From a virus: a stretch of 25,273 nt of DNA. The stretch is from positions 1-25,273 of the IMG/VR virus record IMGVR_UViG_3300005935_000121. One strand, 5' to 3'. Numbering within the stretch: position 1 is the stretch's first letter; each line of letters starts with the position of its first letter. A program made the translations under genes and the position numbers. Below, piece by piece: positions 11,303-24,442 of the stretch. The notes under the pieces were generated by a model. It worked only from the letters and a program-made list of their open reading frames with translations. It made no database searches and had not been told where the DNA came from.

Positions 11303-11599
11303 CTAAAGCTCCTTCAGTATTTCTTCAATTGATAAGTGGCATCCGTTAATATTTGATACCAGATAACGTAATTTATTGATAGTCTCGTTCCCACGATCTG
11401 TTTTGGTTAAGAATTCTATTACTTTCTTAAAGTAGTATTCTGATATTTCTTTCTTTTCTTCGTTTTTTAAGGTTCTTAATTGGAAAGGAACTTTATAATA
11501 ACCTTCTCTTATCACTAGTAGCTCCTTAAATATCTCCATGACTTCATCTATATACATGTAGCCTGTGTCGTCCTGATCTAATTGGGCTGGAATATTCAT
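11303..11599 (-). CDS. Small helical protein of unknown function
   Basis: A 98-residue protein, acidic at the N-terminus and rich in Lys/Glu helices afterwards (YYKVPFQLRTLKNEEKKEISEYYFKKVIEFL). Its start overlaps the HNH-1 stop (TAATG), and it ends three bases before the phosphoesterase start, whose ribosome site GAAGGAG lies inside its 3' end. No motif recognised. Its place between a homing endonuclease and a nuclease-like phosphoesterase carries no firm functional meaning. Confidence 0.55.
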   Translation of the reverse strand: MNIPAQLDQDDTGYMYIDEVMEIFKELLVIREGYYKVPFQLRTLKNEEKKEISEYYFKKVIEFLTKTDRGNETINKLRYLVSNINGCHLSIEEILKEL

Positions 11600-12144
11600 T
11601 ATACCACTTCTTTTCTTTTGAATAAGGTAATTTTATCTAACCATTTAATAAACTCTTCGTAAGGCTGATCCCTTTTACTAAAATTACACTTCTCACAGCA
11701 AGGAACGACATTATCGATATCATATCCTCTGTCAGAGTCGATGCGGTCTATTCCGTTGTAGGTATAATCTCCATTATTATGTCTGCTCTTTTGTATTGTG
11801 GAAGGTTTAGAACCACAGTAATGACAGTTCTGTTGGGTTAGGGTTTTGAATTGTCCCTCTGTTAGTGACCATTCTATATCTCTTTTTAAAGCATTATATT
11901 TATAGTAAGATAAAGCCCTATTGAAAGACGCCTCACCTTCAGGAAGCGTTCTAATTTCTAAAGCTAAACACCCACAGGATTTTGTATAGCCTAAAACTAG
12001 ATTACCTCTTCTTGTCACTAGATCTTTCCCGCAATCGCATTTACATAACCACCTAACACCACCATGCGTATCGTTTTCGGCTCTTTTTACTACTACTAGT
12101 CTGCCAAAACGCTGAGCTGTTAAATCTCTAATCTTCTGTCCCAT
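11599..12144 (-). CDS. Free-standing HNH homing endonuclease, copy 1
   Basis: A 181-residue protein. The N-terminal part is a small zinc-binding DNA-recognition module: LTAQRFGRLVVV then WLCKCDCG (Cys34/36/38) and KSCGC (Cys57/59). The linker LPEGEASFN leads to the HNH domain: CHYCG (Cys107/110), NGIDRIDSDRGYDIDN (residues about 130-145) and PCCEKCN (Cys149/150, Cys153, Asn154). Such enzymes nick or cut DNA at phage conserved genes to spread themselves. The gene lies directly behind an intact terminase gene and has its own promoter, so it is a free-standing, not intron-borne, mobile gene. An AAGGAG site seven bases before the ATG supports the start. Confidence 0.9.
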   Translation of the reverse strand: MGQKIRDLTAQRFGRLVVVKRAENDTHGGVRWLCKCDCGKDLVTRRGNLVLGYTKSCGCLALEIRTLPEGEASFNRALSYYKYNALKRDIEWSLTEGQFKTLTQQNCHYCGSKPSTIQKSRHNNGDYTYNGIDRIDSDRGYDIDNVVPCCEKCNFSKRDQPYEEFIKWLDKITLFKRKEVV

Positions 12145-12229: not shown

Positions 12230-13753
12230 TTAGTACCACGCCTTCGCTACGAAGGTACGCTTCAAAAGTAACGAAACTGCCATTTCCACGGAATCTAATC
12301 TATGTGCCTTAGAACTGTCATCTGTGAAACCTAACATTTCTCTTACGAAATCATCATGTTCACCTTTAAGGACATAAAAGTTTCCTGCGGCCATCGGAGG
12401 GATCATGTTTAATGTGACTCTTGTTACTTTCCCATCTTTTCTTGGTACTCTAACTAGCTTAGTTTTGTTTATTAGACCATTCTGACGGAACTTCTTATCT
12501 ATTAGCTGATACAATGCACGTTGGAAACCAACATCTTCAATACCTAGCTGTCTAGGAATATAGCGTCTAGCTTCTTTTTCGATCTCTTCGATCTGTTTGT
12601 GGATATCTAGCCTAGCTTCTCGTAATCCAGGAAGAAGGAATAGTTGATTGGTCTTTTTATGAAGACCAACAGTACAGAATGCACTGGGATCAGCAGTTTC
12701 TTTATCTGAAATAGCTTGGTCTGTTCCTGTGACTTTAATGAGGTCTTCGATTTCTATAGGTTCTTTTACTCCTTCTGGAAGAACCATTGTCTTATTCTCC
12801 ACAAGAGTATAATATTTAATGTATTCGGGCTTAATAATCATTCCTCTCATGGCTTCTGCATCATTTTGATACTGTGCCGCAAAAATAATAGGACCATCCA
12901 TCTCTCTCTGAGCAATAAGGTCTAGCTTTTCTCCTTTTTTAGCTTCATCTAGGTCTGTTGTGAATCTAGCAGGCCATAAAACTTTGCCTTTTTCTTCATC
13001 TATGATAGCTCTGCAAGTATTAGGGTTGGTGACGTACTCTTGTCTTTTATATTTTTTAAGCAGATGAGTACCATAATAATCCTCATAATGATATCTAGTA
13101 CCTAACCAATGTCTAAAACCACCCGGATCTAGAGTAGGATTAAGGTTAGCCCCAACCCATTCTACGGTGTCTTGCCTGATATTGGTAGTTCTAGTATTTG
13201 AGAAGTCAAGCATATCGTCAATGATATGTTCGTCAACGTGTAAGGAAACCAACGGTCCCATTACTCCAGAAGCTATAACACTTGGTTCTTTAATGCTTTT
13301 AGTTCTGGTAGCTACCGTAAATCTAGAGTTTGTCCATGGAGATCCTACTTGTTTACCCCAATAAGCAATAATCTTCTCATTGGATTCCAGTCTATTTTGA
13401 ATATCAGCGGCAAACACTTGTGCCTGAGTAGCTGTTCTGGATACAATAAGGATTCTAACATTAGGATTAATCAAAAGTCTAGCGATACTATAACCCACGG
13501 TACAAACAGTAGTCTTCGCATGTCCTCTAGGAGCACGAATGAAAGTAGTCTTGTTATCCCATTGAATATTGAACCATTCCTCGTGGAAATCAGCGAACTC
13601 TAGTTCAGGATAAACGATTTCAGTTACAATCTTCCATGGATTAGCAGCATAGTAAGCTCTTTTTTTCGCAGCAATACACGCTAATTCAACATCTACTGGA
13701 TCAGCAGGTTTAGTGTGAACAATCTTCTTTTTTATTGGTAGCTTTATTCCCAT
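12230..13753 (-). CDS. terL: Terminase large subunit
   Basis: A 507-residue protein that packages DNA into the prohead. ATPase part: FHEEWFNIQWDNKTTFIRAPRGHAKTT (Walker A-like, about residues 73-82), RILIVSRTATQAQVFAADIQ strand, and LVSLHVDEHIIDDML (Walker B region, about 169-182). The nuclease part has Asp345 (VTGTDQAIS), Glu406-Asp407 (LGIEDVGFQ) and Asp487 (HRLDSVEMAVSLL), the acidic triad of the RNase H-like fold. Length is normal for the family and no interruption is seen, so the neighbouring HNH gene has not broken it. The start lies two bases after the stop of the small-subunit gene. Confidence 0.93.
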   Translation of the reverse strand: MGIKLPIKKKIVHTKPADPVDVELACIAAKKRAYYAANPWKIVTEIVYPELEFADFHEEWFNIQWDNKTTFIRAPRGHAKTTVCTVGYSIARLLINPNVRILIVSRTATQAQVFAADIQNRLESNEKIIAYWGKQVGSPWTNSRFTVATRTKSIKEPSVIASGVMGPLVSLHVDEHIIDDMLDFSNTRTTNIRQDTVEWVGANLNPTLDPGGFRHWLGTRYHYEDYYGTHLLKKYKRQEYVTNPNTCRAIIDEEKGKVLWPARFTTDLDEAKKGEKLDLIAQREMDGPIIFAAQYQNDAEAMRGMIIKPEYIKYYTLVENKTMVLPEGVKEPIEIEDLIKVTGTDQAISDKETADPSAFCTVGLHKKTNQLFLLPGLREARLDIHKQIEEIEKEARRYIPRQLGIEDVGFQRALYQLIDKKFRQNGLINKTKLVRVPRKDGKVTRVTLNMIPPMAAGNFYVLKGEHDDFVREMLGFTDDSSKAHRLDSVEMAVSLLLKRTFVAKAWY

Positions 13754-13754
13754 T

Positions 13755-14273
13755 TTATTGACTCATATTATCTAGGGCTGTAAGAGCAGACTCTACTTCA
13801 TCATCTGTCATCTCTGGATGTACCTGAACGATCTTAATACGATTCTCTTCTCTTACTTGTTGTGGTGTTGAGACTAAGATATCCATCTGAGTTGGCTGAT
13901 CTAGTCCTAATAATTTAGCTCTACGTTCCATGATCTTAACTACTTTATCAATAGCACCAAGATCCTTACTTTCTATTACAGCTTCCATGGCAACATCTAG
14001 AAGGAGATCTAATCTACCAAGTTCAAGGCTTCTTACCTCATGAGCCTTTTCAGTTATCTCATTCTGGATATATTCAAGTGATCTAATAACACACTTCCTA
14101 GCACCAGATAGACTCATTTTCATTATATCAGCTATTTGTTGATAGTTTTTACCAGCACTTCTAAGCTCAAGAGCCTGACGCTCTCGAAACTTAGCTGTTG
14201 CTAGGGTCTTAGGGGCAGAGCTAGGTGGTCCTCCTTTCCCTTTTTTGTTTTTTTTGAGAGGTGATATAGTCAT
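13755..14273 (-). CDS. terS: Terminase small subunit (putative)
   Basis: A 172-residue protein. A basic N-terminus (PLKKNKKGKGG) is followed by a helix-turn-helix around residues 35-65 (RQALELRSAGKNYQQIADIMKMSLSGARKCVIRSL), then a long helical region (ITEKAHEVRSLELGRLDLLLDVAMEAVIESKDLGAIDKVVKIMERRAKLLGLD) with oligomerisation character. The phrase RRAKLLGLD is common in small terminase subunits. It sits directly before TerL. It should recognise the packaging site and load TerL. The start is in a TAATG overlap with the upstream gene. Confidence 0.82.
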   Translation of the reverse strand: MTISPLKKNKKGKGGPPSSAPKTLATAKFRERQALELRSAGKNYQQIADIMKMSLSGARKCVIRSLEYIQNEITEKAHEVRSLELGRLDLLLDVAMEAVIESKDLGAIDKVVKIMERRAKLLGLDQPTQMDILVSTPQQVREENRIKIVQVHPEMTDDEVESALTALDNMSQ

Positions 14274-14566
14274 TATTTCTTTTCTCTATTTAAAGCTAAT
14301 TTAAGCTGAGTTACATCTTCATTCAACAATACTTGAGCATCATGTAGTGCAACACGGTTACAGAACTCATCTCTTTGATCTGTGATTCTACTAATAATCT
14401 CTTGTCCCTTATCAGAAGCAGCAAAACTCATAAGATCATTAAATATGGTAGATGCAATGCTCATGAAAAGTAGTGGATCTTCTAAATAACGTTGGTCTTG
14501 ATCTATTTCTGCTGTTTCTTTTACGAATAATTCAAATTTACGGGTATCAATGCTCAGTTTTTCCAT
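14273..14566 (-). CDS. Small helical protein upstream of terminase
   Basis: A 97-residue acidic, mostly helical protein (SIASTIFNDLMSFAASDKGQEIISRITDQRDEFCNRVALHDAQVLLNE). No known motif. An exact copy of a 16-base ribosome-site/start block precedes the ATG (GGAGAATAACTA before ATG), shared with two other genes of this operon. It is coupled to TerS by a TAATG overlap. An accessory role in packaging is possible only by position. Confidence 0.6.
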   Translation of the reverse strand: MEKLSIDTRKFELFVKETAEIDQDQRYLEDPLLFMSIASTIFNDLMSFAASDKGQEIISRITDQRDEFCNRVALHDAQVLLNEDVTQLKLALNREKK

Positions 14567-14607
14567 TAGTTATTCTCCTTATTTACGATTGGAATACCAT
14601 TATTTTC

Positions 14608-14769
14608 CTATTTCCATACTGCTACTGTACTGCCACAGTGCTTACATTTAGATGCACCATACTTAATAATACCTAAACATGCATCACATCTACGGTATTT
14701 AATAAGTTTTCCAATCCACCAACTTATTTTCAATCTTATTCCACTTCTATCTGTTATTAGTTTTCTCAT
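14608..14769 (-). CDS. Small zinc-ribbon protein of 53 residues
   Basis: A short gene whose ATG overlaps the stop of the capsid-like gene (TAATG) and which ends at a TAG at 14608-14610. The protein begins MRKLITDRSGIRLKISWWIG and has a CDAC...CKHCG pair (Cys28, Cys31, Cys42, Cys45), the layout of a rubredoxin/zinc-ribbon knuckle pair with ten residues between the two. A good ribosome site (AAGGAG) lies nine bases upstream, inside the preceding gene. Probably a nucleic-acid- or protein-binding zinc ribbon; the function is unknown. Confidence 0.6.
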   Translation of the reverse strand: MRKLITDRSGIRLKISWWIGKLIKYRRCDACLGIIKYGASKCKHCGSTVAVWK

Positions 14770-15224
14770 TAGTTATTCTCCTTGCTTATAAGTTGTACGC
14801 CATAATCGTTATCAATAACACTAACATCTTTCTTATTGGTTTCTACTACTAAGAATAGAGCACCACGTCCAGGTTTAAGGGAATCTGATTTATATATATG
14901 AATCATACCTAAACGACCTATGTAATCCTCATTTTCAGTATAATCCATATTTTGAGTACGCCATGTATCTTCAATTCTAACTTCACCACCAAAGTGTTGT
15001 GCTCCATCACGCATGTCACTTTTTAATTCCACTACTTGCTTGGGGTGCAAAACTGCCCTTAGATCATTTTTTATACCCCAACATAAGTCTTCTTTTTCCT
15101 CTAAGATATAAAGAGCGCTATCTAAAACATCCATTGTTAGTTCGTCATTGGTTATTACCACTGAATGAAACTTGTTAAATAGGTCGCCGATATTATCGAA
15201 CTCTTTTACATTAAATTTACTCAT
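14769..15224 (-). CDS. Short major-capsid-protein-like paralogue (C-terminal half only)
   Basis: A 151-residue protein that lines up with the C-terminal half of the major capsid protein encoded at 18115-18975. Matching stretches (this protein / capsid protein): IGDLFNKF / LTGLFAGL; ELTMDVLDSALYILEEKED (28-46) / DFTDDNFDEARYVLEAQDA (144-162); VLHPKQVVELKSDMRDG (58-74) / VLHPRQTSDLRKSWRDG (171-187); EDYIGRLGMIHIYKSD / GEYMGVSVFQSSKC; RGALFLV / VGAMFIQ; and a DNDYGVQLISKE / DDNSGVPIITDA end. It lacks the capsid N-terminal arm and about the first 120 residues, so it cannot form a normal capsomer. It is intact, with a strong ribosome site. Capsid accessory, assembly modulator or exclusion factor are all possible (inference). 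Confidence 0.7.
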   Translation of the reverse strand: MSKFNVKEFDNIGDLFNKFHSVVITNDELTMDVLDSALYILEEKEDLCWGIKNDLRAVLHPKQVVELKSDMRDGAQHFGGEVRIEDTWRTQNMDYTENEDYIGRLGMIHIYKSDSLKPGRGALFLVVETNKKDVSVIDNDYGVQLISKENN

Positions 15225-15324
15225 TAGTTATTCTCCTATTTCCATTAATATTGTTTATATAGGATTTAAATTCATTATAGGTCATATTATTTTTACCTCT
15301 ATTGCAAACTTTGCAGCAAAGAAG
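15217..15324 (-). pseudogene. Out-of-frame C-terminal remnant of another HNH endonuclease
   Basis: Overlapping the last codons of HNH-2 in another frame, and continuing behind its stop, the minus strand encodes LLCCKVCNRGKNN followed by MTYNEFKSYINNIN. This matches the end of the HNH family here (HNH-3: VPCCKHCN..., SYEEFLSWINKIY; HNH-1: VPCCEKCN..., PYEEFIKWLDKI). An in-frame TAG stands just upstream at 15325-15327 and no start codon precedes the zinc motif. HNH-2 already has its own PCCIKCN, so this is a second, truncated copy. The MTYNEF part could be translated as a 22-residue peptide but no ribosome site supports it. Confidence 0.6.
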
Positions 15325-15907
15325 CTATTTTAAATAGCATGTCATGGTTAAATCCACCGTTTCTGATCTGGACCATATAGTCTCTTTCCAGGAACTCGGA
15401 TAAGGTCATAGTGTATTTGCGTTTGTTGCATTTAATACAACATGGAATCATGTTATCTACATGATAATAATCAGTATTATCAATACGATCAAGTCCACTA
15501 TAAACATAGTCTCCATTAATATTCGGGACGGTATCTGTTTGACTAGGTTCTTTTCCGCAATATTCACACGGTTGGCTAGATAGTCTTTTAAAGTCTTCTT
15601 TGCTCATGTCAAATTTAATCCCTCTCTTCTTTGCATTTGAGATATATTTGCGATATACATGGTTAAAGGAAGCTTCTCCTACAGGTAGTTTGAATTGTTT
15701 GATTTTCTTGAGGCACCCGCAACTTCTAGTTGTTCCTCTTTGTAAGGAAGATCCTCTAACTATAGTTTCTTTACCGCATTCACACTTACAGTCCCACATT
15801 GCCATTCGGTGCTTGTCCATTCCTGCGAACTCTTTTACTGTTAACATACCAAATTTCATGTTGGTTAAGTCGATTATTCTTGTGCTGATTTCTCTTAAAT
15901 TAGTCAT
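15299..15907 (-). CDS. Free-standing HNH homing endonuclease, copy 2
   Basis: A 202-residue protein with the same architecture as HNH-1: LTNMKFGMLTV, MWDCKCECG (Cys40/42/44), RSCGC (Cys63/65), LPVGEASFN, CEYCG (Cys114/117), NGDYVYSGLDRIDNTDYYHVDN and IPCCIKCN (Cys156/157, Cys160, Asn161). It has a longer, unrelated C-terminus after about residue 170 (RDYMVQIRNGGFNHDMLFKIASLLQSLQ). Its start overlaps the stop of the membrane-protein gene (TAATG), with GGAG inside that gene as ribosome site, so it reuses the local translation signals. It sits directly before the capsid-like short gene, which is unbroken. Copy 2 is more distant from copies 1 and 3 than they are from each other. Confidence 0.9.
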   Translation of the reverse strand: MTNLREISTRIIDLTNMKFGMLTVKEFAGMDKHRMAMWDCKCECGKETIVRGSSLQRGTTRSCGCLKKIKQFKLPVGEASFNHVYRKYISNAKKRGIKFDMSKEDFKRLSSQPCEYCGKEPSQTDTVPNINGDYVYSGLDRIDNTDYYHVDNMIPCCIKCNKRKYTMTLSEFLERDYMVQIRNGGFNHDMLFKIASLLQSLQ

Positions 15908-16197
15908 TATTTGTTCTCCTGTTGAATCTGTTTAATATCATCTAATGTTAGGTCTAAGCTATTCATGTAATTTAGCATTTGTTCTATTTCTTCTATATTT
16001 GCGTTAATATTCTCATAGGTTTCATCTATGTTATAATCTATTATTTGTTCTTCATATACTTGTTTTTCATATATAGGAACTAAGGTCTTATTCTCTTCTA
16101 GTGTTTGGGCCGTGAAGAACCCGCATGTAAATATTGTTGCTGCCACTAGTAGTGCGCCAATTGTTTTCCCTGCTGTCTCTGTGAAGTTCTTAGTCAT
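15907..16197 (-). CDS. Small single-TM membrane protein, first gene of the leftward operon
   Basis: A 96-residue protein. Residues about 12-31 (TIGALLVAATIFTCGFFTAQ) form one membrane helix after a short basic head, followed by an acidic, helical, probably coiled-coil tail (YEEQIIDYNIDETYENINANIEEIEQMLNYMNSLDLTLDDIKQIQQ). The Cys within the helix is not in a good lipobox, so a lipoprotein is unlikely. An AAAGGA site eight bases before the ATG supports the start. Being first after the promoter, it may be made early and strongly. It could be a membrane-associated host-takeover, exclusion or spanin-like protein; no family recognised. Confidence 0.6.
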   Translation of the reverse strand: MTKNFTETAGKTIGALLVAATIFTCGFFTAQTLEENKTLVPIYEKQVYEEQIIDYNIDETYENINANIEEIEQMLNYMNSLDLTLDDIKQIQQENK

Positions 16198-16449: not shown

Positions 16450-16478
16450 TTGACAGCTATTTTAGGAATTGGTATAAT
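16450..16478 (+). promoter_or_regulatory. Rightward consensus promoter P1
   Basis: A perfect TTGACA (16450-16455) and perfect TATAAT (16473-16478) with a 17-base spacer. The predicted start is near 16485. No convincing coding frame follows for about 430 bases, only a 21-codon frame at 16505-16570, so the product may be an untranslated or leader RNA that reads towards the tRNA genes. Confidence 0.85.
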
Positions 16479-16913: not shown

Positions 16914-16916
16914 TAT

Positions 16917-16989
16917 GGGTATATAGTTCAGTTGGAAGAACGTCACTCTGGCAGAGTGAATGTCGCAGGTTCAAATCCTGCTATATCCA
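16917..16989 (+). tRNA. tRNA-Ala, anticodon GGC
   Basis: A complete 73-base cloverleaf. The acceptor GGGTATA/TATATCC contains the G3-U70 wobble pair that identifies alanine tRNAs. The D stem is GTTC/GAAC with AGTTGGAA loop, the anticodon stem TCACT/AGTGA with loop CTGGCAG (anticodon 16950-16952), and the T stem GCAGG/CCTGC with TTCAAAT loop. The discriminator is A73 and the CCA end is not encoded. It reads GCC (and GCT by wobble) codons. Confidence 0.92.
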
Positions 16990-16997
16990 TATAATTT

Positions 16998-17044: not shown

Positions 17045-17117
17045 GCTAATGTAGCTCAGTTGGTAGAGCATCTCTTTAGTAAGGAGAATGTCATGGGTTC
17101 GATGCCTATCATTAGCT
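17045..17117 (+). tRNA. tRNA-Thr, anticodon AGT
   Basis: A complete cloverleaf. The acceptor GCTAATG/CATTAGC is perfectly paired, the D stem is GCTC/GAGC, the anticodon stem TCTCT/GGAGA with loop TTAGTAA (anticodon 17078-17080), and the T stem ATGGG/CCTAT with TTCGATG loop. The G1-C72 and C2-G71 pairs fit threonine identity. Discriminator base is T, not the usual A, and CCA is not encoded. The anticodon begins with A, which is uncommon in bacteria outside arginine ACG. It would read ACT, a very common Thr codon in this phage. Confidence 0.88.
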
Positions 17118-17130
17118 CTAAGGAAATAAT

Positions 17131-17242: not shown

Positions 17243-18094
17243 ATGCCTAATGAAGCTGGACAGCCTAATGAGGAACAAGTAACCGAAGAATCTAACGTAA
17301 ACATCAACGAGAAGCTGATTCAACAAGAACAGTCTTTCAACAGAGAAAAGCAAGATATTATCGCTAGACGTGATAATGCTACAGCGGCTCGAAGAGAAGC
17401 GTTTGAACTAATGAACCAAATGCTACCGGATGGTAACAAGATTGATCTGACAAATCCGAATCTAGAAACTGTAAGAAATTTCATTTCAAATAAAGACCTT
17501 AATACCCCCACAAAGGGTAAAGGTAACAACACAAACACAACTGAAGATTTTTCTGCACAACTAGAACAACACCTTTCACCATTAAAGAAACAAATGGCTG
17601 AATTGGAACAAATGGCATCTACTGCTACAAGAGATCGTGATAACTTTATGTTGGGTAATACCATCAAAGACACAGTTCTTGCTAACGGTGGAGCTAAAGG
17701 TCCATTAGATGCTGTGACTAGAATTTTAAGAGACATGATGATCGTGGATACGAAATCTGGCTCTGCTAAGGTTATTCTTAATAGGGAAGCTGTTGAAAGT
17801 GCTGGATATCAGGCAGTCAAGGTTGATGATGGACACGATGTTGTACTACTTTCTGTGGAAGAATTCATTAAGGATTTCCTTCCTAAGAACTCGTGGGCGC
17901 TGGATGGCGCTGGTGGTGGAGCAGGGTCTAATTGGAGTAGAAACAATGGTCAAGCAGATGTCAATATGAATATGTTTAATGGCCTGAGCGACGATCAACA
18001 AAGAGCCGCTTATCGTAATCTATCTCCACAACAAAAGCAATCAATCAAAAACCAACGCTCCTTATCCGGTAAGAAAACTAAGATTTGGGGTTAA
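17243..18094 (+). CDS. Capsid scaffold-like protein
   Basis: A 283-residue hydrophilic protein directly upstream of the major capsid gene, the usual place for the scaffold. The N-terminal 65 residues are acidic and helical (EKLIQQEQSFNREKQDIIARRDNATAARREAFELMNQ). A coiled-coil-like segment lies around residues 105-135 (AQLEQHLSPLKKQMAELEQMASTATRDRDNF), and there is a disordered Gly/Asn stretch and a Gln-rich basic C-terminus (LSPQQKQSIKNQRSLSGKKTK), as expected for the capsid-binding end of scaffolds. An AAGGAG site lies ten bases before the ATG. No protease domain was seen, so cleavage, if any, uses another enzyme. Confidence 0.75.
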   Translation: MPNEAGQPNEEQVTEESNVNINEKLIQQEQSFNREKQDIIARRDNATAARREAFELMNQMLPDGNKIDLTNPNLETVRNFISNKDLNTPTKGKGNNTNTTEDFSAQLEQHLSPLKKQMAELEQMASTATRDRDNFMLGNTIKDTVLANGGAKGPLDAVTRILRDMMIVDTKSGSAKVILNREAVESAGYQAVKVDDGHDVVLLSVEEFIKDFLPKNSWALDGAGGGAGSNWSRNNGQADVNMNMFNGLSDDQQRAAYRNLSPQQKQSIKNQRSLSGKKTKIWG

Positions 18095-18114: not shown

Positions 18115-18975
18115 ATGGCTAATACTACAGTCACAACACTAGATTCCGTTATTAATAGCGAAATCATCAATGACGCTATCGCACAGGAAGCTCGCGCTAA
18201 TGTCGTTGTAGCACCTCTAACTGACGAAATGAATATTGCTAATGAATCCGGCCTAGTCGGACAATTCGCTAAACTAGACACTCTAGTTGCTACAGCAGTC
18301 GCTGAAGAAACAGATATTACTGGTAGTGCAGTAACACCAACTGACATCCAGATCACAGCATCTGAGGTTGGTGTTTTAGTGCCAATTACTGATAAGTCTA
18401 TCGCATCTGCTAAAGGTATGATGAGAACACTTGATACTTATGCAAAAGCTTGTGGTCGTGCTGTTGCCGATAAGCTTGAAGGGGATCTAACTGGTCTTTT
18501 TGCTGGTCTTAATGACGGTACTGCCGTTGGTTCTACTGGTTCTGACTTCACTGACGACAACTTCGATGAAGCTCGTTATGTCCTTGAAGCACAGGATGCT
18601 CAGAATTTTGGCGACATGGTCTGCGTATTGCATCCACGTCAAACTTCTGACCTTCGTAAGTCTTGGAGAGATGGTGGAAACTCCGCAGCTTTCATTCTGC
18701 AAGAAAAGTTCATTGATAAAAAGGGCTATCAGGGCGAATACATGGGCGTTTCCGTATTTCAGTCAAGTAAATGTCCTACTGCTAATACAGCCGCAGACGT
18801 TGTAGGCGCAATGTTCATTCAGGATTATACTCTTGGTCTAGTTACTAAGTGGCTTTCCAGACTAGAATTTGATCGTGATGCTTCTGCTCGTATGACTGAA
18901 GTTGTAGTGACTTCAAATTACGGGGTTGGCGAAATCGACGACAATAGTGGCGTTCCCATTATAACGGACGCCTAA
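18115..18975 (+). CDS. Major capsid protein (HK97-fold type)
   Basis: A 286-residue protein that should form the capsid shell. The N-terminus MANTTVTTLDSVINSEIIND with VVAPLTDE, a central ASEVGVLVPITDKSIASAKGMM and C-terminal VLHPRQTSDLRKSWRDGG, GEYMGVSVFQSS and GAMFIQDYTLGLVTKW regions match the pattern of coat proteins in tailed phages without a long N-terminal delta domain. The VLHPRQ motif (171-176) and the following YMGV strand are typical of the P/A domains. Scaffold gene upstream and strong terminator downstream support the call. Its codons are slightly richer in C/G than the average gene here, fitting high expression. A shorter paralogue lies on the opposite strand at 14769-15224. Confidence 0.88.
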   Translation: MANTTVTTLDSVINSEIINDAIAQEARANVVVAPLTDEMNIANESGLVGQFAKLDTLVATAVAEETDITGSAVTPTDIQITASEVGVLVPITDKSIASAKGMMRTLDTYAKACGRAVADKLEGDLTGLFAGLNDGTAVGSTGSDFTDDNFDEARYVLEAQDAQNFGDMVCVLHPRQTSDLRKSWRDGGNSAAFILQEKFIDKKGYQGEYMGVSVFQSSKCPTANTAADVVGAMFIQDYTLGLVTKWLSRLEFDRDASARMTEVVVTSNYGVGEIDDNSGVPIITDA

Positions 18976-19091: not shown

Positions 19092-19799
19092 ATGGGAAGA
19101 AAAGCTAAAGACCTAAAAAGTCAAAGGTTCGGTAAACTAACAGTAATAGAACAAACTACAGAGCGTATCAGAAATGCTGTAGCTTGGAAATGTAAATGTG
19201 ATTGCGGTGGTGAGATAACCTCATCTAGCTCAGAACTACAAAGAGGAAATGTTCAATCATGCACTTCATGTCGTAGAGCACCTAATTTTAAAGATCTTAC
19301 AGGACAAGTTTTTGGGGAATTAACTGTTGTTAGTTATGCTGGACTTGCAGATAACTACAAGAAGGCTAGATGGTTGTGTAAATGTAGTTGTGGTCGGAAG
19401 ATTACTATTCACTCTGGCGATCTCTCATCAGGCAATACTAGGACTTGCGGCAATGGAGTTCATAGACAGCTTCCTTCTGGAGAAGCAGCACTTAATACTC
19501 TAATTAGGGTTTACAAAAGACATGCAGAAGAAAGAGATTACTACTTTAATCTTACTAAAGAACAATTCAGAGATATAACCTCACAGAATTGTCATTACTG
19601 CGGAATAGAACCATCCACTATCCAAAAAGCAACAGGTGGATATTATATATATAATGGCATAGACCGTAAAGATAACACTGTAGGATATACGGTAGATAAC
19701 TGCGTTCCTTGCTGCAAGCACTGCAATACTGCTAAATTAGAAAGATCTTATGAGGAATTCCTTTCTTGGATTAATAAGATCTATAACAAACATAACTAA
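19092..19799 (+). CDS. Free-standing HNH homing endonuclease, copy 3, with doubled N-terminal zinc module
   Basis: A 235-residue protein. Two N-terminal zinc modules stand in tandem: LKSQRFGKLTVIE...WKCKCDCGG...GNVQSCTSC (residues 8-60) and LTGQVFGELTVVS...WLCKCSCGR...GNTRTCGN (69-121). Then LPSGEAALN and the HNH domain: CHYCGIEPSTIQK (167-179), NGIDRKDNTVGYTVDN (188-203) and VPCCKHCN (205-212). HNH-1 and HNH-2 have only one such module, so target recognition here may cover a longer site. In the second module the last Cys of the usual SCGC is lost (TCGN). It lies right behind the intact capsid gene on its own promoter. AAAGG ten bases upstream serves as ribosome site. Confidence 0.9.
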   Translation: MGRKAKDLKSQRFGKLTVIEQTTERIRNAVAWKCKCDCGGEITSSSSELQRGNVQSCTSCRRAPNFKDLTGQVFGELTVVSYAGLADNYKKARWLCKCSCGRKITIHSGDLSSGNTRTCGNGVHRQLPSGEAALNTLIRVYKRHAEERDYYFNLTKEQFRDITSQNCHYCGIEPSTIQKATGGYYIYNGIDRKDNTVGYTVDNCVPCCKHCNTAKLERSYEEFLSWINKIYNKHN

Positions 19800-20394: not shown

Positions 20395-21045
20395 ATGATA
20401 GCTGTACTCACGCCATCTTTAACCGGAGAGTTTATTGAGGGCTGGTATAAAGCCCTTTCTGCGTCTATAGGAGATACGGAATACACTATATATACTTGTA
20501 CTGGAAAACCTATATTAGAAGCTAGGAATAAAACTACCACTGCTGCTTACCAAAACAAAGAAGTCTCACACTTTCTTTTTTTGGACGACGATATCCTCCC
20601 TTCCCCTCTAGGAATACAGAAACTATTAGAAGCCGATAAACCTATAATAGGTGGAGTATGCTGTTATAAGACTACACCATACAAAGCTGTATTTGCTAAC
20701 CTAAATACCAAGAATGAGATGTACGACTTTGATCCTAAGCCTAAATACCCGTCTACTCCTTTTGAGGTAGATGCTACTGGTTTTGGATGTCTATTAGTAA
20801 AAAGAGAAGTACTAGAAGCTATAGGATATAAAGACTGGTTTAGATGGGACTGGATAAGAAATAAATCTAATGGTCGTGCTTACAGATTTGCAGGTGGTGA
20901 AGACGTGTGGTGGTGTGAGAAGGCTAAACTACATGGATATAAGGTTTTTATAGACCCAAAATGCCGTTGTTTACACGTTTCGAGGACTAGTGGTAAAATA
21001 TACCCGAAATCACTAGAAGCAAAGTTTTGGAAGAGGTTTGACTAA
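20395..21045 (+). CDS. Glycosyltransferase-like GT-A protein (GT2-type)
   Basis: A 216-residue protein. It opens with IAVLTPSLTGEFIEGWYKAL, then KPILEARNKTTTAAYQN and the nucleotide-sugar/metal motif HFLFLDDDILPSP (about residues 60-72). VDATGFGCLLVKREVLE (120-137) and FAGGEDVWWCEKAKLHGYKVFIDPKCRCLHV (about 163-195) match the acceptor half of small phage GT2-like enzymes. The expected transfer is a sugar from a UDP- or similar donor to DNA, protein or glycan; the acceptor is unknown. Size is typical for a single-domain enzyme. It is coupled by TAATG to the large glycosyltransferase behind it. Confidence 0.78.
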   Translation: MIAVLTPSLTGEFIEGWYKALSASIGDTEYTIYTCTGKPILEARNKTTTAAYQNKEVSHFLFLDDDILPSPLGIQKLLEADKPIIGGVCCYKTTPYKAVFANLNTKNEMYDFDPKPKYPSTPFEVDATGFGCLLVKREVLEAIGYKDWFRWDWIRNKSNGRAYRFAGGEDVWWCEKAKLHGYKVFIDPKCRCLHVSRTSGKIYPKSLEAKFWKRFD

Positions 21046-23654
21046 TGCATAGATGGAAAAACAAAGACGGTATTATTATTACCTTAGCTGACGAACCGCA
21101 GATTTTCGGGCAATTTCACACTAACCAGAAAAAGGGATGGACATATTTAGGTAAAGAAACATCAACCACTAAGCTTACATTGAAGAAGTCTGGCAAGCAG
21201 TTATGGAACCTATGTGGTGCTGAAGTCCGTGAACGTTCTATAGATTGGGCACTAGATAAGCGTCCTAGAGTAGTTCTCGTTGTGGATACACACGATTGGT
21301 CTTTTGCTGAGACAGCTAAGCAGATTATTAGCCATTTGAGCGATAGATTCCAATTCGCAGTAGTACCAATGTACTCAAAACCACAGCATAAAGGTATTGA
21401 ATGCGATATCGTTTATTGCTTATGGCACTCGGCACATAAAAATATTAAAGAAATGTACGATGCTAAAGCCTATATAGGTAATCTTACAGATCATTATTCA
21501 TCATTTCAAGAAGCTATAGACACTTATGACGGGTGGACCTGTTCTAACTTTATGTTATTTCAGGAGTTATGTGAACAAGTAGATCCAAGCAAGGTAAAAC
21601 TTGTTAGCGTAGGTGTGGATAGTAGTCGCTTTGTTTGTTCCCCCGGCAAGGCGGCTGCTCCCACCTTTAAAATTGGGTGGACAGGGAATACCAATACTAT
21701 CAGTAATATCAAGGGTCTTCCAGAGATAAAGGAAGCATGTAAATTAGCTGATGTTGAGCTATTAGTCCAAGATGCAGCTACTAATCCTATACAACATGAC
21801 CAGATGTACGATGAATTCTATTCTAAGATCTCATGTTATGTCTGTGCCTCAGAATTAGAAGGTACTCCAACACCTGTGTTAGAAGCTTTGTCTTGTGGTA
21901 TTCCTGTCATTACGACTAGAGTAGGTATTACATCTCAAGTAATCAAGCATGGCGTGAATGGATTCTTCATTCCTAATAGAGAACCAGCAACAATCGCTGG
22001 AGCTATAGAAGCCATTACCAAACTAGATACCAATACTATACAACGTACTAGTAGAGCATCAATATATCCTTATTCATGGGATAAACAAATTAAACTACTA
22101 GAAGATATGTTTGATAGCTATATAGATAACCCTATTAAAAGAACTAAGAAGGTAATACTAAAGAAATCCAACAAGAAGTATGTATCTCTCCTAGTACCGT
22201 ACTATAATGGATTACGATTCATTCCAGAACTAATGAAGAACCTGGAATCACAAGACCTTTCTAACACAAAGGTCTATTTCTACGATGATGGTAGCACTGA
22301 TGGATCATCCTATATGGTACAATCCTTAGCTCATAACTTAGGAACTGAGGGTAAAGACTACGAATTCTATACTAATGAATCCCGTCAGGGAATTGCGGCC
22401 ACGATAAATTTATTTATCAAGGAAGCTAAAGAACCGTATATCCTTAAACAGGATGTAGATGATCTATGTGAACCCGATAGAGTCTCAACATTACTCAGTA
22501 TTATCCTAGAGAAGGAAGTATCTGCCGTATTTGGCAATATTGAATGGTTCATGGGTAGTGACACTGAGATTAGATATCCTATGGACTGGATGAAGACCAA
22601 TAAGTCAGAAGAATTCATTAAAAACGAATATCTTCAAACTCCCTGTAATTGTAGAGTTTCCTTTGCCCAATGTTTATGTGATAGAAATGTGTTTAAAGAC
22701 GTAATAGGGTTTTTAGACGAACAATTAAAATATGGTGAGGATCAGGAAATTATAGCTAGGTTTATGTATAGTGGTTTACCATTTGCTTTAGATACTAAGC
22801 CTACCTATTTATACCGTAAACACATTGGATCAACTACATCAGGACATGCACCAATATCTATCTCAAAGAAGGAGATATGGACAAGAATGCCTAACTATAG
22901 TAGAATACTACATATACCAAAGAGAAATGTTCTTCTCTCAAGTTATTTTTTCGGCGCACCAGATCCTCAAGATAACAACAACCAAGTAGAGGCTAATGAC
23001 CCAAGTAAGATAGATAACTACTACAACAGTATAGAAAAACACTTAGACAATATTGACCTTATAATATTTCATGATGGTCTATCTAAGGAATTTATGAGTC
23101 TATATCCAAAGATAATCTTTAAGTACCACGAGTTAGATTTTTTTTCGACGAATGATGAGCGATTTCTTGCTTATGTGGAATATCTAAACAATAGAAAAGA
23201 TTATACAGATAGAGTACTAATGACAGACCTATTTGATGTAGTATTCACTAAGAACCCTTTCGACCTAATAAGTAATGAATATAAGCTATACTGTGGTCTA
23301 GATGAAAGAGAGAACATCATCTCTAATAACGGTTGGGTAATGGATAAGATGAAAGAAGCCTTTAATAAAGTAGTCTATGAAGACAAACAGATTCTCAATG
23401 CAGGAGCGATAGGAGGAACTATACAACCAGTACTAAATCTCCTAAACCTAATGAAAGACACATTCATATCCCTAGATAGCAATAAGAACATAAACATGGC
23501 CGTATACAATAAGGCAGTCTATGACTTATTTTCCGATGAGGAAATACACAAGGGCGCGCCATTTACCTCACGCTTCAAACGTTTTGAGAGACATAGTACC
23601 AGTAGATTCAAGAGGTACTCTAAGCATAGTAAGGCATACATTATCCACAAGTAG
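21045..23654 (+). CDS. Three-domain glycosyltransferase fusion protein
   Basis: An 869-residue protein. Residues 1-70 are a small leader. Residues about 75-360 are a GT-B (GT4-like) enzyme: IGWTGNTNTISNIKGL, then ELEGTPTPVLEALSCGIPVITTRVGI (from about 269) with the sugar-nucleotide-binding Glu. Residues about 375-610 are a GT2 domain: VSLLVPYYNG, YFYDDGSTDGS (about 412), ILKQDVDDLCEPDR (about 468) and GEDQEIIARF (about 564). Residues about 625-869 are a third, GT-A-like domain with VLMTDLFDVVF (about 725), QILNAGAIGGT (about 784) and an end like FTSRFKRF...AYIIHK. All three keep their key motifs. It probably builds a short chain of different sugars; the acceptor is unknown. Confidence 0.8.
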   Translation: MHRWKNKDGIIITLADEPQIFGQFHTNQKKGWTYLGKETSTTKLTLKKSGKQLWNLCGAEVRERSIDWALDKRPRVVLVVDTHDWSFAETAKQIISHLSDRFQFAVVPMYSKPQHKGIECDIVYCLWHSAHKNIKEMYDAKAYIGNLTDHYSSFQEAIDTYDGWTCSNFMLFQELCEQVDPSKVKLVSVGVDSSRFVCSPGKAAAPTFKIGWTGNTNTISNIKGLPEIKEACKLADVELLVQDAATNPIQHDQMYDEFYSKISCYVCASELEGTPTPVLEALSCGIPVITTRVGITSQVIKHGVNGFFIPNREPATIAGAIEAITKLDTNTIQRTSRASIYPYSWDKQIKLLEDMFDSYIDNPIKRTKKVILKKSNKKYVSLLVPYYNGLRFIPELMKNLESQDLSNTKVYFYDDGSTDGSSYMVQSLAHNLGTEGKDYEFYTNESRQGIAATINLFIKEAKEPYILKQDVDDLCEPDRVSTLLSIILEKEVSAVFGNIEWFMGSDTEIRYPMDWMKTNKSEEFIKNEYLQTPCNCRVSFAQCLCDRNVFKDVIGFLDEQLKYGEDQEIIARFMYSGLPFALDTKPTYLYRKHIGSTTSGHAPISISKKEIWTRMPNYSRILHIPKRNVLLSSYFFGAPDPQDNNNQVEANDPSKIDNYYNSIEKHLDNIDLIIFHDGLSKEFMSLYPKIIFKYHELDFFSTNDERFLAYVEYLNNRKDYTDRVLMTDLFDVVFTKNPFDLISNEYKLYCGLDERENIISNNGWVMDKMKEAFNKVVYEDKQILNAGAIGGTIQPVLNLLNLMKDTFISLDSNKNINMAVYNKAVYDLFSDEEIHKGAPFTSRFKRFERHSTSRFKRYSKHSKAYIIHK

Positions 23655-23728
23655 TAAATGTCATGAATGTCACAACTAAAAGTAACTACATAGCAATAAT
23701 ACTATACTCACATAACACAGGGGAACAA

Positions 23729-24442
23729 ATGAAATATAACATCCTTACAGTAGCTAACCATTCCTATTTTAATTTCCTGAAGCTTTTTATTTCTTCCGCG
23801 AGAAGATATCTCCCAGAAAATAAGATAAACTTCCTATATGTGTACGATACGGGACTCACTTCTCAGGATCTGGAGTGGTTATCCACAAGAGATGTAGTAG
23901 TAAGACCTACTAAGGTAGATATGGCTAAAATGGACAATATTCATGATGAAGTATGGGAAACCATAACGTATTCAAAGACTTCCTTCCTTAAAGATAGTCT
24001 TATGAGAGACCCTACTCCTACTATAATGGTAGATGTAGACTGTATGTTCGTTAATGATATGTTCTTTTGGCTAGAATTATTTGAAGGTAATAGAGACTTT
24101 ATCTTATGTCGTACTACCTATAAGAAGCCTAAGTATATTGGATGTTTTTTTGCCGCGATTGACATAAAAGAATCTCTTCCCTTCCTTGATCTGTGGATAA
24201 AACAGATACCTAAGATGAATACAATGGTAAAAGAAAGCCCAGCCCTAAGTAAAGTAGTAGAAGACCATAGCCTACAATACAACTATGGGGAGATAAGAGA
24301 TAAGGTTATATGTGCCCCAGTACATCTAACAACACCAGATAGTTGTATATTACACATGAAGTCCTATAAGGACATAAGAACAGTAGATCAACGTATAACC
24401 CAGAAAGAAGTACTACCATACCTAAAGGAGCTAGATCTATAA
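23729..24442 (+). CDS. Glycosyltransferase-like GT-A protein
   Basis: About 237 residues from the ATG at 23729, which has AGGGGA just upstream; an in-frame ATG at 23663 would add 22 residues but has no ribosome site. MKYNILTVANHSYFNFLKLFISSARRYLP and FLYVYDTGL are the first strands. TPTIMVDVDCMFVND carries the DxD metal motif. CFFAAIDIKESLPFLDLWIKQIP, DHSLQYNYGEI and CILHMKSYKD match the acceptor part and terminal metal His of GT8-like enzymes. It is related in type to the third domain of the preceding protein. It overlaps the ATP-grasp gene by TAATG. Confidence 0.68.
   Translation: MKYNILTVANHSYFNFLKLFISSARRYLPENKINFLYVYDTGLTSQDLEWLSTRDVVVRPTKVDMAKMDNIHDEVWETITYSKTSFLKDSLMRDPTPTIMVDVDCMFVNDMFFWLELFEGNRDFILCRTTYKKPKYIGCFFAAIDIKESLPFLDLWIKQIPKMNTMVKESPALSKVVEDHSLQYNYGEIRDKVICAPVHLTTPDSCILHMKSYKDIRTVDQRITQKEVLPYLKELDL

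Follow-up and report, generated by a model that had tools for sequence, protein, structure and literature searches.

We analyzed a virus record of 25,273 bases (IMGVR_UViG_3300005935_000121), referred to below as the window, from a tailed phage that encodes a major capsid protein (MCP) at positions 18115 to 18975. In a different operon, on the minus strand at positions 14769 to 15224, an open reading frame (ORF) with an ATG start encodes a protein of 151 amino acids, termed here the small protein. Sequence comparison shows that it is genuinely homologous to the MCP of the same phage (the own MCP). Alignments and structural models suggest that it comprises both segments of the HK97 A-domain, connected through a short linker that would correspond to the former second P-domain strand. 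An earlier note, made from the sequence alone, had placed a short, intact capsid homologue at the same coordinates.

The evidence for homology is as follows. (i) A BLASTP comparison of the small protein with the own MCP scored 37 bits (pairwise E=4e-8), and a tblastn search of the phage's genome with the small protein returned only the small gene itself and the MCP gene (E=1.1e-5). (ii) We constructed a hidden Markov model (HMM) from 84 MCPs of other phages, leaving out the own MCP, and used it to search 7614 ORFs. The small protein was retrieved at E=4e-7 and was the sole non-MCP match below 0.2, the next non-MCP ORF having E=0.23; the capsid homology claimed in the earlier note thus holds with a profile that excludes the own MCP. 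(iii) The profile comparison proposed there, made with hhalign against a profile of 25 MCPs, gave a probability of 93.6% and E=2e-7. (iv) The real score was reached by 0 of 1000 residue shuffles for residues 1-76, by 3-6 of 1000 for residues 75-126, and by 0 of 1000 for residues 118-151. Since these separate pieces each exceed their shuffled controls, the likeness is not confined to the VLHPKQ motif, and the three pieces are collinear with the MCP. (v) Residues 126-146, aligned with MCP residues 263-283, have a BLOSUM62 score of 36, which was reached by 2 of 5000 shuffles; their mean score over 32 MCPs is 26.9, compared to 10.2 ± 2.2 in shuffles. No PHROG or Pfam capsid family alone reached the threshold with the small protein, no PADLOC family matched it, and a PDB sequence search provided no significant match. 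A first MAFFT alignment was rejected; it misplaced the deletion and paired the DYIG motif with the strand preceding the P-domain, a register that differs from that of the HMM. The accepted register, for which rows were trimmed at the end of the A-domain, agrees with the HMM alignment.

In this register, the small protein aligns with MCP residues 128-235 and 263-283, leaving a gap of 27 residues (MCP 236-262), and shows length changes relative to the own MCP at its residues about 45-54 and 80-98. Its start is equivalent to about MCP residue 114-128; the N-arm and the E-loop are missing, about the last turn only of the spine helix is left, and almost the entire P-domain is absent. The loss of the N-terminal half and of an internal segment had been recognized in the earlier note. 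The homologous region that it gave as MCP 122-286 stands, with limits that become 128-283 and with the internal gap, and of the "P/A" domain that it considered retained, the models leave the A-domain but hardly any of the P-domain. In the model of the MCP (predicted local distance difference test [pLDDT] score, 77; predicted template modeling [pTM] score, 0.76), the A-domain consists of a helix (147-159), a strand (168-172), a helix (174-186), a hairpin (205-216), a strand (229-235), and a last strand (279-284), and the long P-domain strands 240-255 and 260-273 lie between the latter two strands. AlphaFold modeled the small protein with modest confidence (pLDDT 64, pTM 0.59), and the elements of this model, namely, helix 31-43, strand 55-59, helix 61-74, hairpin 101-112, and strand 122-125, match those of the MCP A-domain. 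Foldseek matches of this model were mostly capsids and weak (best E=0.02), and a second structure aligner matched it almost exclusively to the A-domain range of HK97-fold capsids and encapsulins. The best superposition, with 9m66_A, had a Z score of 8.5 and a root mean square deviation (rmsd) of 3.9 over 110 residues, so that the superposition proposed in the earlier note does match capsid A-domains, with modest confidence. The predicted fold is support and not independent proof, because the alignment behind the model consisted of MCPs. A division of the A-domain by a P-domain segment is the usual HK97 arrangement; in the P74-26 MCP, the A-domain comprises residues 192-320 and 384-391, and the P-domain residues 107-186 and 326-373 (PMC6775164). 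As the A-domain normally consists of a middle segment and a C-terminal strand around the P-domain, the deletion follows a structural boundary.

The data on origin favor a duplication. In a tree of 29 A-domains, the small protein groups with the own MCP (support, 95/91), and both belong to a subclade (100/98) that also holds the nearest MCPs, those of the loci L010, L011, L014, and L032. Alternative placements of the small protein cost 5 log units and are not rejected (p value of the approximately unbiased test [p-AU], 0.07-0.09). The small protein also shares with the own MCP the residues D35, Y39, E42, R72, and D73, at which this MCP departs from the family consensus. The small protein is thus probably a paralogue of the own MCP, as the earlier note had it, and a duplication in the phage's own lineage is favored by the tree, with the reservation set by the p-AU values. 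The divergence is large, since the branch of the small protein (2.06 changes per site) is about four times longer than that of the own MCP (0.55). By codon position, the small gene and the MCP gene are 49/53/30% identical, and chance at position 3 is 30%. Third codon positions are thus saturated, yet the frame is open, which suggests selection on the protein; at 34% G+C content, the chance of an open frame of 151 codons is about 1e-5 if the sequence were fully randomized. The small gene therefore appears to be maintained, a dead remnant being unlikely, and a frame kept through such long divergence indicates that the gene probably has a job.

Further copies were sought in several ways. (i) A second A-domain gene was found in 0 of 84 loci with related MCPs (0.94 Mb, with many fragments), so that the search for the pair in related phages that the earlier note proposed gave nothing in this set. 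(ii) Searches of viral contigs with the small protein, the alignment of the pair, and the A-domain alignment retrieved only an identical contig and one MCP. The identical record, IMGVR_UViG_3300025736_000323, matches the window over 13.2 kb and, being identical, carries no evolutionary information; it was also the only result of a search for closer relatives based on the large terminase subunit (TerL). (iii) A search of genome contigs gave no further copy, and a scan of them for related MCPs gave one contig of a metagenome-assembled genome, without a second copy. (iv) A tblastn search of 50,697 phage records provided a stretch of a Nodularia phage only (E=2), which was discarded as its protein fails the MCP profile. 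(v) A fold search of BFVD returned several short proteins of 125-180 amino acids (A0A516M5T7, A0A9E7DVV6, UPI001E7EF71E, and A0A2H4IBH4, the latter from Erwinia phage Y3) at an rmsd of 5.7-10, which are candidate A-domain-like proteins. In a limited search of the open-access literature, we found no report of an isolated A-domain capsid paralogue.

The coordinates of the relevant features are provided in Table 1. The minus-strand terminase-lysis operon spans about 16.2 to 9.7 kb and encodes, in this order, a membrane-type protein, an HNH protein, the small protein, a 53-amino-acid zinc-ribbon-like ORF, a 97-amino-acid ORF, the probable small terminase, TerL, a second HNH protein, a 98-amino-acid ORF, a phosphoesterase-like protein, and endolysin. 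The genes for the scaffold and the MCP are located apart from it on the plus strand (17.2-19.0 kb); gene order thus places the small gene with terminase and not with capsid, as had been claimed. The 16-nucleotide leader AGGAGAATAACTAATG is identical before the small gene and the next two genes (15222-15237, 14767-14782, and 14564-14579, minus strand). A fourth copy, two bases off, is present at 15905-15920 (minus strand), and four such matches were observed in none of the shuffles. The stop codon of the small gene overlaps the start of the next ORF (TAATG); along with the leader common to three genes, this agrees with the frame, ribosome site, and coupling that the earlier note considered to be kept. 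A 22-codon ORF, MTYNEFKSYINNINGNRRITNE (15218-15285, minus strand), read by eye, has a purine-rich site of its own and ends just beyond the start of the small gene; it may encode a coupling peptide.

Table 1. Features of the window relevant to the small A-domain gene
Feature	Positions	Strand	Basis
Gene for the 151-amino-acid, probably A-domain-only MCP paralogue (P0001)	14769..15224	-	BLASTP, profile, hhalign, shuffles
Predicted first A-domain segment, small-protein residues 15-125 (MCP 128-235)	14850..15182	-	Alignment, both models
Small-protein residues 126-146, predicted linker and C-terminal A-domain strand, ungapped versus MCP 263-283	14787..14849	-	Shuffle test
Leader AGGAGAATAACTAATG of the small gene, with ribosome site and start codon	15222..15237	-	Sequence identity
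MCP gene, HK97 fold, 286 amino acids	18115..18975	+	Library match, model
MCP residues 128-235, A-domain segment retained in the small gene	18496..18819	+	MCP model, alignment
Segment that the small protein lacks: MCP residues 236-262 (QDYTLGLVTKWLSRLEFDRDASARMTE), a turn preceded by the first long P-domain strand	18820..18900	+	MCP model
Head scaffolding protein gene	17243..18094	+	phrog_206, E=2e-4
TerL gene, in the operon of the small gene	12230..13753	-	
Helix-turn-helix protein, probable small terminase	13755..14273	-	PHROG label "Rnase E"; one relative annotated terminase small subunit
97-amino-acid orphan with leader AGGAGAATAACTAATG	14273..14566	-	
53-amino-acid zinc-ribbon-like orphan with leader AGGAGAATAACTAATG, start overlapping the stop of the small gene	14608..14769	-	
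HNH/endonuclease VII-type gene, immediate upstream neighbor of the small gene	15299..15907	-	

Other observations concern the neighborhood. The label "Rnase E" of PHROG 645, assigned to the gene at 13755-14273, looks wrong; relatives are first genes of Arthrobacter and Microbacterium phages. Three related but diverged HNH/endonuclease VII-like genes (11599-12144, minus strand; 15299-15907, minus strand; 19092-19799, plus strand) adjoin TerL, the capsid paralogue, and the MCP, respectively. The gap between the divergent operons contains tRNA genes for Ala(GGC) (16916-16990) and Thr(AGT) (17045-17118), both on the plus strand, the AGT anticodon being unusual in bacteria; both lie below a promoter-like site (16450-16478) that matches the consensus at 12/12 positions. 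After the head genes follows a run of glycosyltransferase-like and, by eye, ATP-grasp-like genes (20395-24442, plus strand), also seen in L002:12418-14491. No integrase or repressor was recognized in the window, and nothing there points to lysogeny.

Our tentative reading, to which we give somewhat less than an even chance, is that the small protein is a domain-deleted paralogue of the own MCP that modulates assembly via A-domain contacts with it. The MCP gene would have been duplicated, and deletion would have stripped the copy of its N-arm, E-loop, spine helix, and first long P-domain strand, so that two A-domain segments remained with a short linker between them; far divergence with the frame kept would have followed. 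The small protein would be made from the late terminase-lysis operon at the time of capsid construction, a timing suggested by its position among late genes. There it would touch the MCP by A-domain to A-domain contacts at capsomer centers, around which A-domains pack (PMC8569155), and would cap or space capsomers or tune their formation. A lone A-domain could in principle meet the MCP at these centers but not enter the lattice. Since the N-arm, E-loop, and P-domain are lost, an ordinary lattice subunit is unlikely, and of the regulator, minor shell part, and dominant-negative block proposed in the earlier note, a modulator or blocker is favored over a true minor shell subunit. A narrower version, in which the phage cut the A-domain from its own MCP and uses it as an assembly factor or inhibitor of the packaging operon that is unable to join the lattice, is possible, but we put it forward with greater reserve. 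We infer both the duplication within the own lineage and every functional step. If this reading is true, a maintained isolated A-domain would mean that the A-domain is able to fold and function without the P-domain, and would point to its contacts as a means to control or block the assembly of capsids.

Several points weigh against this reading: (i) residues 75-126 resemble MCPs only weakly in sequence; (ii) the fold is not an independent test, the confidence of the model is modest, its residues 126-151 have no alignment behind them, and residues 130-151 are below a pLDDT of 50; (iii) conservation of the MCP itself raises identity at codon positions 1 and 2 over position 3, so that the codon-position pattern counts only together with the open frame; (iv) the gene is present in one phage, which places a direct ratio of nonsynonymous to synonymous rates (dN/dS) and co-conservation out of reach; and (v) the contact with the MCP is one that we only infer.

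The long branch, the two length changes, and a location with terminase genes, away from those for scaffold and MCP, would also fit an A-domain fold exapted for a task such as packaging or host takeover, in which the MCP is no longer met. We consider this unlikely, as the residues specific to the own MCP are still in common and no motif or known PHROG, Pfam, or PADLOC family points to another role. The small protein might instead be a weapon between phages, an A-domain decoy that poisons capsid assembly in co-infecting phages whose MCP is similar, the own MCP being tolerant or protected by an antidote from an adjacent gene. In line with this idea, SaPIbov5 Ccm, a homologue of the phage capsid protein with 24% identity to it, suppresses the helper and diverts assembly (PMC8569155), the assembly inhibitor Tab is located in a terminase operon, and two orphan genes with leader AGGAGAATAACTAATG adjoin the small gene. 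However, the small gene is nearest to the own MCP, so that self-harm would be expected first, the window lacks signs of lysogeny, and the antidote is hypothetical; we judge this distinctly unlikely. It is improbable that the small protein is a minor part of the virion, for instance a plug or decoration at capsomer centers or vertices. A-domains line capsomer centers (PMC8569155), and small proteins that bind hexamer centers exist, as reported for pb10 of T5 (PMC5292684), but a protein without N-arm, E-loop, and P-domain could not take the place of an MCP subunit in the way of T4 gp24 or Ccm, and its gene lies apart from the head genes.

That the gene is a nonfunctional remnant of duplication, perhaps arrived with the adjoining HNH gene, could be suggested by the location of the three HNH genes beside the MCP, TerL, and small genes and by its presence in one phage only. 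It is nevertheless very improbable given the open frame despite third-position saturation, the good leader, the overlapping start and stop, and deletion edges that match domain edges. An HNH cassette as carrier of the capsid copy was also rejected, since the two HNH genes involved share only 43% identity and flank the capsid copies on opposite sides, and so do not make up a single copied cassette. A decoy or sink that shields the MCP from capsid-sensing host defenses appears far-fetched: systems such as CapRel sense MCPs directly (PMC9712102), but a fragment could trigger CapRel, which capsid protein activates, instead of blocking it, and nothing found here on host or defense backs a decoy.

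Among the known systems closest to the small protein are the HK97-fold MCPs (PHROG 544; Pfam Phage_capsid_4, PF25209), including the own MCP and those of the pelagiphages HTVC111P and HTVC026P. The small protein is homologous to them over the A-domain and C-terminal strand, with an equal order of secondary structure, but is encoded in another operon and, at about half the length, lacks the N-arm, E-loop, spine helix, and first long P-domain strand. Tab/anti-Tab of Pseudomonas phage JBD26 involves a small gene of the terminase region that acts on virion assembly; the likeness is one of genomic position only. The target of Tab is the tail tape measure protein, and Tab is neither capsid derived nor known to be linked to the small protein by sequence. 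T4 gp24, the vertex protein, is a paralogue of gp23 and resembles the small protein as an HK97-fold capsid-type protein beside the main one in the same phage, but it is full length and builds vertices. Ccm is likewise a second, diverged capsid homologue beside the main one (24% identity, compared to about 30% here); it has a complete HK97 fold, forms all pentamers, redirects the capsid size of the helper, and is satellite encoded, whereas the small protein, known from sequence, is phage encoded and apparently A-domain only, the P-domain, E-loop, and N-arm of a capsomer-forming fold being gone. A complete HK97 fold is common to the capsid homologues for which an effect on assembly (Ccm) or a place at the vertices (gp24) is known.
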